A DNA stretch of 38,255 bases from Chloroflexota bacterium (GTDB lineage: Bacteria; Chloroflexota; Ktedonobacteria; Ktedonobacterales; JADMIN01), in NCBI GenBank assembly GCA_021814145.1, contig JAKAIY010000017.1, positions 1-38,255 on the forward strand, written 5' to 3'. This document shows positions 9,216-38,255 of this stretch, piece by piece; the first letter of the stretch is position 1, and each line of letters opens with the position of its first letter. The notes beneath the pieces are model-generated. The model did not search any database. It worked only from the letters and a program-made list of their open reading frames with translations, and was not told the origin of the DNA. The position numbers were made by a program, and so were the translations under genes.

Positions 9216-9244
9216 AAAAAAAGACCCCAGATCACTGGGGTCTT
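9216..9244 (-). terminator. Rho-independent terminator of tRNA-Gly
   Basis: A 10-bp perfect stem (AAGACCCCAG at 9221-9230, CTGGGGTCTT at 9235-9244) with a 4-nt loop is followed on the minus strand by a run of seven T (the A-run at 9216-9222 on the plus strand, partly shared with the stem). It starts 6 nt beyond the tRNA 3' end. Confidence 0.93.
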
Positions 9245-9249
9245 TTCGG

Positions 9250-9321
9250 AGCGGGAGACGGGATTCGAACCCGCGACCCATTGCTTGGGAAGCAATTGCG
9301 CTACCACTGCGCCACTCCCGC
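9250..9321 (-). tRNA. tRNA-Gly (anticodon CCC)
   Basis: A complete cloverleaf of 72 nt. The acceptor pair is GCGGGAG / CTCCCGC with discriminator T. The D arm contains AGTGGTAG. The anticodon stem ATTGC / GCAAT encloses loop TTCCCAA, giving anticodon CCC. The T arm is GCGGG-TTCGAAT-CCCGT. The CCA end is not encoded. It has its own promoter and terminator, so it is a single-gene transcription unit. Confidence 0.97.
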
Positions 9322-9843: not shown

Positions 9844-9925
9844 GCCCTCGTGGCGGAATGGTATACGCAGCAGGTTGAGGGCCTGTGCCCGTAAGGGCGT
9901 GGTGGTTCGAGTCCACTCGAGGGCA
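9844..9925 (+). tRNA. tRNA-Leu (anticodon GAG)
   Basis: An 82-nt class II tRNA. Acceptor GCCCTCG / CGAGGGC, discriminator A. Anticodon stem GCAGG / CCTGT (one G-T pair), loop TTGAGGG, anticodon GAG. The long variable arm (GCCCGTAAGGGC) is expected for leucine. The T loop is TTCGAGT. CCA is not encoded. Confidence 0.96.
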
Positions 9926-10059: not shown

Positions 10060-10131
10060 GGGCGGCTAGCTCAGCGGCAGAGCGTCTGCTTTACACGCAG
10101 AGGGTCGGGGGTTCAAATCCCTCGCCGCCCA
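10060..10131 (+). tRNA. tRNA-Val (anticodon UAC)
   Basis: A 72-nt cloverleaf. Acceptor GGGCGGC / GCCGCCC, discriminator A. D arm TAGCTCAGCGGCAGAGC. Anticodon stem TCTGC / GCAGA, loop TTTACAC, anticodon TAC. T arm GGGGG-TTCAAAT-CCCTC (one G-T pair). CCA is not encoded. It ends 10 bp before the stop of the minus-strand acetyltransferase. Confidence 0.96.
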
Positions 10132-26160: not shown

Positions 26161-26326
26161 GCGCCACGCGCGGCGCACGTATCTCGCAGAGATTAATACG
26201 AAGAGGACGGCTGCCAGGCGCCACGCGAGGGACTCTGTCAGCTCTCGCGGCGCGGACGCGTGTGGAGGTCTGGAAAGAATGTGGAAATGAGGAATGATGC
26301 GGTCGCGCACCCACCGTCGGTTCGCA

Positions 26327-26573
26327 TCTGCCAGCTCCTGTTACTCTCCGACTCAGACCCGGCGGTTCCGCGGCGCCCACAGTGATCCACTTACCGCTGC
26401 TTCGTTCCCGACCTGACGGGGTTCGCAGATGTATGTCGCGCGGGGACCGGATCCTCATAATCATCAAGCACGAACAGAACTGGGTCGACGCAACTCTCGG
26501 GTGGGAGTTCAGCCTTGCCTACGGAGCGTTTCAAGTACAGGGTAGCCCCAACTCCCCACCTAGCGCGACCTGG
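26327..26573 (-). ncRNA. ffs: Signal recognition particle RNA, large bacterial type
   Basis: On the minus strand, helix 8 carries the diagnostic 'GTCAGGTC-GGGAAC-GAAGCAGC': the GGAA tetraloop and asymmetric loop that bind the Ffh M domain. The loop-closing pair is G-C rather than the usual C-G. Toward the 5' end, 'GCTAGGTGGGGAGTT', 'CCCTGTACTTGAAA' and 'AAGGCTGAACTCCCACCCGAG' match the Alu domain of long SRP RNAs of the Bacillus/Thermus kind. Helix 5 strands pair across the middle, and the terminal CCAG / CTGG can close the molecule. Length is about 247 nt; ends are estimated from the promoter and pairing. It lies directly upstream of dnaX, a known arrangement. Confidence 0.93.
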
Positions 26574-36231: not shown

Positions 36232-37977
36232 CTAGCTGAACGCGGCCAGCGCGATGCCAGGAACTTTGCCTATCGAGGGTCGGTATTCCAGGCTGGCGAG
36301 CTGACGGAAAACGGCGGGCGCCGCCTTGGCGCGCGTGATGAACCACGGTGGGACTGGCATCAAACGGAACGACGCGCGCACCACCGACTTCTGCGCCTGA
36401 TCGAACATCAGCGCGTTATGCACTACGCCCGTCCCAGAGCGGATGTTGTCCAGCGAGTGGCCGGGGAACGCGCCCCAGGTAGTGACGCCCAGCGCGAAGC
36501 TTACCCCCGCCCAGTAATTGACACCGACCGAGCCATAACGCAGGTTGGTGACGGCGCGCTCGACCGCCGCGGCGACCTTCGGGTCGCGCAGCGAGGCGGG
36601 ATGCGCGATTAGCGTCGCGTTTAGTGTCCCCCAGACCTGCTCATTGCAGAACTCCACCGCGCGGTCCACATAGTCCGCGACGCTGGTGGCGTCGAGCGCG
36701 GTTTCAGAGAAGAGCGAGCAGAACGCCTCCGTCGTGAAGCAGATATCGTCGCTGGCGTTGGGGTCTACGCCAGTAATCAGCGTCCAGGGGAGATTGGCCC
36801 CATCAGCTGAGCCGTAGCGCTCCGCCTCGGGGTGGGCCTGGATAAACGCCTCGTAGCGGTCACGCGCGCCGGGATAATACGCCGGGCGGCTTGGCGCGGC
36901 CTTGAGGACGCCGCGCATCGCGTCGAGCAGGCGCTGGCGCTGACCCCAGCCGCTGTGCTGTACGACAACGCGCGTCGCGTTGCAGTTGAAGCCCGCGTTG
37001 TTGGTCAGCATGCTGGCGATATGCGCGGCCTGATAGTGGATGTCGGCCTCGGACCATGGCCCCGGCACGACGATCACCGGGCTGACATTGCCGAGCTCGC
37101 CGGTGATCTTCTTCGGCAACAGCGGCGTCCCCGCCGCCTTGCGCGCCTGCGCCTCCGCTCCGACGCCCCAGACAATCGCGTCGAAGGTCTTGTCGGAGCC
37201 GGTAATATGCACCTCATCTACGCCAGCGTGATTGCAAAGATAGGCGCCTTCCGCCGCGCCGCCGTAGATGATTCTCAGATAGCCGCCCTCGATCAGCGAG
37301 CGGAACGCCTGCTCCATCAGGGGACCAACATAGGCGTTGACCGGGTTGGTCTTGAAGACGACGACGTGATTCTCTACGAAGAGCTTGTAGAGCGCATCGA
37401 GCGGGCCGATGCTAGAGACGTTGCCTGCGCCCAGCACCAGCGCGACCTTGCCAGCCGGCTTCTGACGGTAGGTGACGGCCATCGTCTGCGGCAGCGCCTC
37501 GACGCTTACGCCCGGCTTCATCCAGATTTCAGCGGTGACCCCGGAATAAAAGACCTTGTCGTAACCGGTGTGTGGGAAGACGCCTGCCGCTACCTGGCCA
37601 TTGGGCAGCGCGCGGACGCCGCCGGGGATACGGGGCGAGCCGTAGCGCTCGATGTCGAGCAGGCTCATGCGTAACTGGCGCAGTTGCTTGAGTGTGGTGT
37701 AAGGTCCCGTCGCCCATTCCTCACCCGCCGCCGGGGAGTCCGATTCGACCCCCTTGGCTTCCAGGCAGGCGGCGACCCAGCGATCCCTGAGCGCGTGAAA
37801 GTCCGCCATTACCCGGTCAATCAGCGCGACGCGCTCGCGAATGGGAACGGACACCCAGGCGTCTTTGCGCTCCTGGAGCGTCCGCACGGCGTCATCCATC
37901 GCCGCCTGATCGGTTGCGGGGATCGCGCCAGAGATAGCGGGAAACTGGAATGAACCCTTCTCAAGCGTCGTTGTCAT
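36232..37977 (-). CDS. Aldehyde dehydrogenase family protein, long form
   Basis: A 581-residue NAD(P)-dependent oxidoreductase. The Rossmann segment is 'VALVLGAGNVSSIGPLD' at about 178-194. 'VVVFKTNPVNAY' contributes cofactor binding, and 'HITGSDKTFDAIVWG' resembles the ALDH 'FTGS' motif. Catalytic candidates are Glu294 ('ITGELGNVSP') and Cys332 ('NNAGFNCNATR'). The spacing (38 residues) is close to that of classical ALDHs. It is about 80-100 residues longer than a typical ALDH, mainly at the N-terminus and in the middle. The substrate is unknown. AGGAGG lies upstream of ATG 37977 at a rather long distance (about 13 nt). Probably co-transcribed with the amidase. Confidence 0.85.
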   Translation of the reverse strand: MTTTLEKGSFQFPAISGAIPATDQAAMDDAVRTLQERKDAWVSVPIRERVALIDRVMADFHALRDRWVAACLEAKGVESDSPAAGEEWATGPYTTLKQLRQLRMSLLDIERYGSPRIPGGVRALPNGQVAAGVFPHTGYDKVFYSGVTAEIWMKPGVSVEALPQTMAVTYRQKPAGKVALVLGAGNVSSIGPLDALYKLFVENHVVVFKTNPVNAYVGPLMEQAFRSLIEGGYLRIIYGGAAEGAYLCNHAGVDEVHITGSDKTFDAIVWGVGAEAQARKAAGTPLLPKKITGELGNVSPVIVVPGPWSEADIHYQAAHIASMLTNNAGFNCNATRVVVQHSGWGQRQRLLDAMRGVLKAAPSRPAYYPGARDRYEAFIQAHPEAERYGSADGANLPWTLITGVDPNASDDICFTTEAFCSLFSETALDATSVADYVDRAVEFCNEQVWGTLNATLIAHPASLRDPKVAAAVERAVTNLRYGSVGVNYWAGVSFALGVTTWGAFPGHSLDNIRSGTGVVHNALMFDQAQKSVVRASFRLMPVPPWFITRAKAAPAVFRQLASLEYRPSIGKVPGIALAAFS

Positions 37978-38101
37978 ATAGGGATTCGCGCCTCCTGTGG
38001 CGTCATGCGGTCGGGCGCTTCCGCCGGAGACCCAGTCCAGCAGCGCCCATAGCGCGCCATGGCGTCAGAACATAACGGGTCGCCCACTTTGCGGGAACTA
38101 T

Positions 38102-38129
38102 ATCATAGATACGGTTTTCTGATACAGAA
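38102..38129 (-). promoter_or_regulatory. Candidate promoter/operator for the aldehyde dehydrogenase operon
   Basis: On the minus strand, TTCTGT (38129-38124) and TATGAT (38107-38102) are 16 bp apart in an A/T-rich patch. The same patch has a small palindrome, TTCTG-ATA-CAGAA (38117-38129), and GATAC twice, 13 bp apart. The -35 match is poor, so this is weak. Confidence 0.3.
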
Positions 38130-38205
38130 CCCTGTTCACCGTGGAGAGAGCGTGTATGTGTCCAGGGGAGTGTGGGCTTTGGTGATTCCCCTCGGTTACT
38201 CAGTG

Positions 38206-38245
38206 GCCGTGGCGTTGACCGCTAGCTAGCGGTCAACGCCACGGC
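38206..38245. repeat. Perfect 40-bp palindrome at the window edge
   Basis: Two 20-bp arms with no spacer, centred between 38225 and 38226 on CTAG|CTAG. The left arm contains GTGGCGTTGACCGC and the right arm its exact complement. No T-run follows, so it is not a typical terminator. It ends 10 bp before the end of the window. Confidence 0.92.
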
Positions 38246-38255
38246 GCGCGCCTCC

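Follow-up and report, generated by a model that had tools for sequence, protein, structure and literature searches.

A perfect spacerless palindrome inside the right end of a multi-copy IS256-type insertion sequence in a Chloroflexota draft genome

Introduction

Insertion sequences of the IS256 family are typically about 1.2–1.5 kb long and typically give target duplications of 8–9 bp. Copy-out/paste-in transposition has been described for one member, ISCth4 (PMC7780238), and a survey of Mutator-type elements (PMC3942029) covers the family; the string "palindrom" has 0 occurrences in the main text of either paper. Within open-access full text, a scope outside which subscription papers and ISfinder entries lie, no description of recurrent palindromes near IS256 ends was found. 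REP sequences, according to the consulted part of PMC1525189, are insertion targets, including for an IS256 member.

Here we describe a perfect palindrome close to the end of a contig from a Chloroflexota bacterium. "The window" is the whole stretch of DNA analysed, 38,255 bases, and makes up all of C50, one of the 246 contigs in the draft assembly.

General features of the palindrome

38206..38245, no strand: perfect spacerless palindrome with 20-bp arms (inverted-repeat scan, self-complementarity and fold)

The original prediction was of a perfect 40-bp palindrome without spacer, and this is what is present: the 40-mer equals its own reverse complement, its 20-nt arms (38206–38225 and 38226–38245) being 100% complementary with a spacer of 0. 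It is the longest inverted repeat (spacer up to 6) across the 38,255 bases. The arms had also been called improbable by chance, and plain arithmetic, assuming equal base use, agrees, with 38255 x 4^-20 or about 3e-8 expected. The predicted RNA fold of the palindrome is an 18-bp stem with a CUAG loop, and a 70-nt stretch folds at -41.8 kcal/mol with a z of -4.8 (dinucleotide shuffles, single fixed stretch). The absence of a T-run noted earlier was confirmed by a terminator scan of 37900–38255 on both strands, which returned 0 sites; a canonical intrinsic (rho-independent) terminator was rejected, the stem having no T-run. Searched at gathering scores, Rfam gave four matches in the window and 0 at the palindrome. 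An exact search with the central 34 bases gave 0 matches in the genome-contig and viral-contig collections, the window's own genome lying outside both.

Elsewhere in the window, Rfam models match a bacterial large signal recognition particle RNA at 26303–26568 (minus strand) and three tRNAs at 9250–9321 (minus), 9844–9925 (plus) and 10060–10131 (plus). The runner-up inverted repeat of the window (9219–9246, 12-bp arms, spacer 4) has a T-rich end and lies just downstream of the first of these tRNAs, a terminator-like placement.

Genomic copies and element ends

The last 102 bases of the window, from 38154, are the start of a dispersed repeat; the contig break is therefore ordinary, of the kind that repeats commonly cause in assembly.

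38154..38255, minus strand: IS256-type insertion sequence, right end, truncated where the contig stops (14 copies, target duplications)
38154..38177, minus strand: right terminal inverted repeat, GTATGTGTCCAGGGGAGTGTGGGC read on the plus strand, compared with the left end GATAGTGTCCAATTGAGTGTGGGG
38146..38153, plus strand: presumed copy of the target duplication beside the right tip, GAGAGCGT, from position only

In a contig-end search of the genome (40 of 52 candidates scored, self-matches of the palindrome excluded) there were at least 13 matches of at least 57 bases and one of 24 bases. The first 19 bases of the repeat, used as a pattern on the same genome, occur exactly at 14 places and with three mismatches at one more. 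All 14 right-end copies reach the end of their contig, with an identical boundary and different flanks. Eleven of the 14 carry the whole palindrome, each at a contig end; C202 stops short of it, C189 diverges and then ends before it, and C108 is a variant. The window runs 10 bases past the palindrome, and C62, C77, C81 and C95 run 33–35 bases past it in the transposase frame.

The suggested check for further copies in the genome thus gave the full palindrome at 11 places (40 of 52 candidates scored), always as part of the same repeat. Eleven identical copies within one genome do not bear out the expected instability in vivo. Nor is the sequence REP-like, as dispersed copies might have implied: the copies are dispersed, yet all 11 lie inside the right end of the insertion sequence, and a REP-like repeat was rejected since no copies independent of it were present among the 40 of 52 candidates scored.

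The original prediction had also raised an assembly fold-back. That the window ends 10 bases past the palindrome, and that the contigs carrying it end nearby, would fit such an artifact, but complementarity ceases immediately outside the arms (TTACTCAGTG before, GCGCGCCTCC after), four contigs continue for 33–35 bases in the transposase frame, and the palindromes of relatives, that of L151, from the genome of a named strain, among them, occur away from contig ends. A fold-back is consequently very improbable.

A left-end pattern, GTCCAATTGAGTGTGGG, was found at 15 places, with GATAGT directly before it in 15 of 15. The 14 right and 15 left ends are all at contig ends. The terminal inverted repeats are imperfect, GTATGTGTCCAGGGGAGTGTGGGC and GATAGTGTCCAATTGAGTGTGGGG being equal at 17 of 24 positions by eye. 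Among the 14 x 15 comparisons of flanks, exact target duplications occur in five right/left pairs, against 0.003 expected for 8-mers:

8-bp target duplications: C54–C115, C108–C244 and C189–C35
9-bp target duplications: C62–C89 and C95–C228

The pair C8–C66, with seven bases in agreement, was kept out of this count. The window copy's own 8-mer, GAGAGCGT, had no partner among the 15 left ends found. The palindrome is thus an internal part of a multi-copy IS256-type insertion sequence with about 15 copies. Of the earlier option that it marked the end of a mobile element, the element stands; the palindrome, however, lies 52 bp inside the right tip. An operator or resolution site, also among the original options, is a candidate that gained neither support nor contradiction here.

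A separate inverted repeat in the same genome, at 33607–33625 of C68 (L034), has 15-bp arms (CATGTAGGTGTCCAG / CTGGACACCTACATG), looks like the tip of the insertion sequence and is away from a contig end; it is perhaps due to chance or a tiny relic.

Family assignment and the transposase gene

On protein evidence the element in all likelihood belongs with the IS256 (Mutator) family. This filing rests on both ends and on the relatives because the body of the transposase gene is absent from the draft genome, where a PF00872 search gave 0 matches. By eye, the left end in C242 continues into the reading frame MADKTSMALEELLRKAQLSDDVDFLHEGIRVLAQA, a 35-residue transposase start identical at 22 of 35 positions (63%) to that of the relative L086 and too short for a model match. 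The L086 transposase itself scores above the cut-offs of both PF00872 (4e-139) and NF033543 (3e-113), the latter being the IS256 model. The relatives in genomes G007 and G008, closest by right end, start with the C-terminus of such a transposase, the G007 piece matching PF00872 at 4e-10. The draft genome holds no full-length copy of the element; relatives with both ends found measure about 1.35–1.46 kb, with one gene between the ends. A plasmid search returned 554 records with related transposases, many of the 40 listed being annotated "IS256 family transposase", and a scan of viral contigs for relatives gave two loci.

38222..38254, minus strand: transposase end, EARAVALTAS plus the stop TAG (38222–38224), resembling related transposase ends
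36232..37977, minus strand: host gene, aldehyde dehydrogenase-like, downstream of the transposase (PF00171, E 3e-12)

EARAVALTAS and its stop resemble the FTLTAS, ALLAAS and ALLMAS endings of relatives, each likewise followed by a stop. The palindrome takes in the stop codon together with the seven sense codons before it, and reaches 16 bp further. The host gene is co-directional with the transposase and has its start codon at a distance of 177 bp from the tip; transcription that leaves the element would therefore be of consequence here. The reading frame of this gene has 581 residues with a PF00171 match only at 165–344, an unusual member; it scores far below the NCBI cut-offs for named enzymes.

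A strong stem at the end of the transposase gene might serve as a terminator of its message even though it has no T-run, and a survey, in the part consulted, finds U-trails not to be needed for termination in many genomes (PMC8355165). Against this, the terminator scan gave 0 sites in 37900–38255, the palindrome precedes the stop codon in the relatives L151 and L156, and in this copy it overlaps the stop codon, a position at which ribosomes repress terminators in E. coli (PMC4824070, from the part of the text consulted). We regard a terminator of this kind as quite unlikely.

Palindromes in relatives

Relatives were collected as 112 loci (27 with new loci from the matches listed in a 400-genome phylum search, plus 79 and 6), of which 111 had a hit, L055 having none; these reduce to 82 distinct elements. 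The window's own element and loci from 29 genomes of G126's class stand outside the 82. The limit for a long repeat was perfect arms of at least 13 bp, no more than 6 bases apart, within the 170 bases that follow the final conserved transposase motif, a stretch present only in part downstream of L144 and L092. Five of the 82 distinct relatives pass it between transposase and right end, compared with 0 of 421 equal windows inside transposase genes, in which the highest arm was 11:

L087: arms 26, spacer 3
L198: arms 19, spacerless
L143 (genome G007): arms 17, spacerless
L151 and L156: arms 15 each, spacerless

The remaining 77 have no such palindrome. L111 (13-bp arms) was dropped from the in-element count, its repeat lying beyond the terminal repeat by eye, and L086 (15-bp arms, 18-nt loop), L088, L089 and L148 fall below the limit and are not among the five. 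The palindrome of G007 differs in sequence from ours and occurs at one place only in its genome, within the element, and L151 and L156 are related to one another. A minority of relatives, then, have a palindrome in roughly this position, differing in sequence from that of the window.

The other 284,146 bases of these loci held two further repeats, in L200 (in the flank) and L207. The latter, at 1408–1445 of an uncultured Chthonomonas contig, is a spacerless 38-bp palindrome directly inside an IS256-type left terminal repeat, before the transposase gene.

In a tree, the Rubrobacter-type group of L149, L151 and L156 (99/97) stands beside L150, L155 and L164, all three without a long palindrome, and it is thus reasonably clear, for this group alone, that the palindrome was gained within it. 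A label test on the tree gave five changes, two of them forced by well-supported branches and in total no fewer than with shuffled labels; it set palindrome rows against weaker-hairpin rows only, with 68 other rows uncounted, and is uninformative.

With the window's own and L207 counted, six of the seven long perfect repeats found within elements have no spacer. Chance would make a four-base centre self-complementary in 1/16 of cases, so this excess calls for an explanation beyond RNA pairing. In six of nine elements the repeat is 51–55 bp from the tip; two others have 70 and the last has 79, the tips being set by hand, while the stop codon falls before, inside or after the repeat, varying by element. 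These observations would suit a role of the DNA itself: symmetric DNA, or a cruciform, just inside the end block would either bind a dimeric protein or act at a stage of copy-out transposition such as strand transfer or the start or stop of replication. Nothing in an RNA hairpin calls for the spacerless form, the tip distance holds in six of nine elements while the stop codon moves, and one palindrome, that of L207, is at a left end. On the other hand the palindromes have no common sequence, most relatives have none, and loops of three or more occur in L087 and in the L089 group. The distance to these hand-set tips may reflect only the conserved end block, and by eye the stops of elements without a palindrome are at a similar distance from the tip. 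A role at the level of DNA seems unlikely to us.

Conservation of shape and possible function

A single homologous hairpin follows the stop codon in L086, L087, L089 and L148, with 91% of cells paired. In it 8 of 23 pairs are changed on both sides, a number that none of 500 shuffles equals and that slid controls (at most 3) do not approach; the pattern is suggestive of compensatory change, in four sequences only. L151 and L156, in turn, differ by two mirrored differences in their 15-bp arms, both remaining perfect, and the stretch from palindrome to tip is 87% identical between them. In L149, from the same genome as L151, perfection has been lost.

The transposase frames of L151, L087 and L149 are interrupted, with 189, 202 and 149 codons open respectively, and those of L156, L198, L086 and L089 are open for 402–417 codons. 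Because L151 and L087 are broken yet perfect, and L149 is broken and decayed, perfection of the palindrome does not track intactness of the transposase here.

We tentatively prefer, at a probability of about 0.4, the reading that template switching creates such palindromes as inverted duplications, which persist because their hairpin insulates the end of the element. Formed in the mRNA, and also in single-stranded DNA, a strong hairpin would help to wall off this end by blocking transcription, either run-out from the transposase gene into the host or entry from outside. The co-directional host gene next to the window's copy speaks for insulation, as do the shape kept under changing sequence in the shared hairpin and in L151/L156 and the recurrence in 5 of 82 relatives against 0 of 421 control windows. 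The 77 relatives without a palindrome show it to be dispensable, and this counts against insulation, as does the copy in G008, one of the two relatives closest by right end, which folds weakly at a z of -0.8, a value that, like those of the other relatives' folds, is flattered by single-base shuffles and by taking the best of several windows. There is also no T-run on either side, with E. coli terminators near stop codons being repressed by ribosomes (PMC4824070, as above), and the palindromes of L151 and L087 are perfect despite broken frames, L149 being broken and decayed.

Several of these points favour instead a by-product without effect, produced when template switching occasionally makes a palindrome at a tolerant site and spread with a successful copy. 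The 77 of 82 relatives lacking it, the decay in L149 and the perfect repeats of the broken L151 and L087 would all be expected, and C108 looks one switch away from the common form. This runs against the occurrence of palindromes repeatedly at one place and the apparently compensatory changes in the shared hairpin and in L151/L156, although repeated switching could also mirror changes. We rank this possibility a close second to the insulating hairpin, with the DNA-level role third and the T-less terminator fourth; the four are not sharply separated.

A wider reading is that, in part of IS256, spacerless palindromes are remade repeatedly with new sequence inside the end block, shape being selected and sequence free, and the cruciform or hairpin itself serving copy-out transposition or fencing off the element. 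It loses a little probability because the palindromes stay perfect in L151 and L087 despite broken transposase frames, and we consider it doubtful.

Possible origin by template switching

At 26162–26240 of C108 there is a right end of the same length over its visible part, in which a 9-base block has seven differences and all else is identical to the other copies. This block has the outer 10 bases on one side and the central GCTAGC on the other, and the transposase stop codon is removed. Only one contig tip shows this form, and its other arm lies beyond the contig end.

A template switch at a weak inverted repeat would leave a short inverted duplication, here at the little-constrained border between transposase gene and end block and perhaps while the element is being replicated in copy-out transposition. 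One switch between the outer 10 bases and GCTAGC could convert the C108 form into the perfect palindrome, which would also explain the missing spacer. Against the insulating, template-switched hairpin it must be said that the hairpin counts come from four sequences and that C108 is a lone tip.

Comparison with described systems

The finding comes down to an element of a known kind, and it accounts for the contig end. Unrelated palindromes that recur at a single location within a common family of transposons form a natural series on how palindromes originate and persist, and offer a simple test of whether a transposon end needs a structural fence.

The element is like IS256 in the PF00872 and NF033543 matches of its relatives, the imperfect terminal repeats, the 8–9-bp duplications and, again in relatives, the single gene that the ends enclose; what sets it apart from accounts of that family is a palindrome, perfect and spacerless, that covers the last codons of the transposase gene. 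With the REP targets treated in the consulted part of PMC1525189 it shares dispersed palindromes associated with insertion sequences, but here the palindrome is inside the element and is not its target, and none lies outside among the 40 of 52 candidates scored. The change cluster that would perfect an imperfect inverted repeat, seen between C108 and the other copies, resembles quasipalindrome-associated template-switch mutation as set out in the consulted part of PMC7202029. It differs in that the event is presumed from one contig tip and in that palindromes recur here in the same position within a single mobile-element group.
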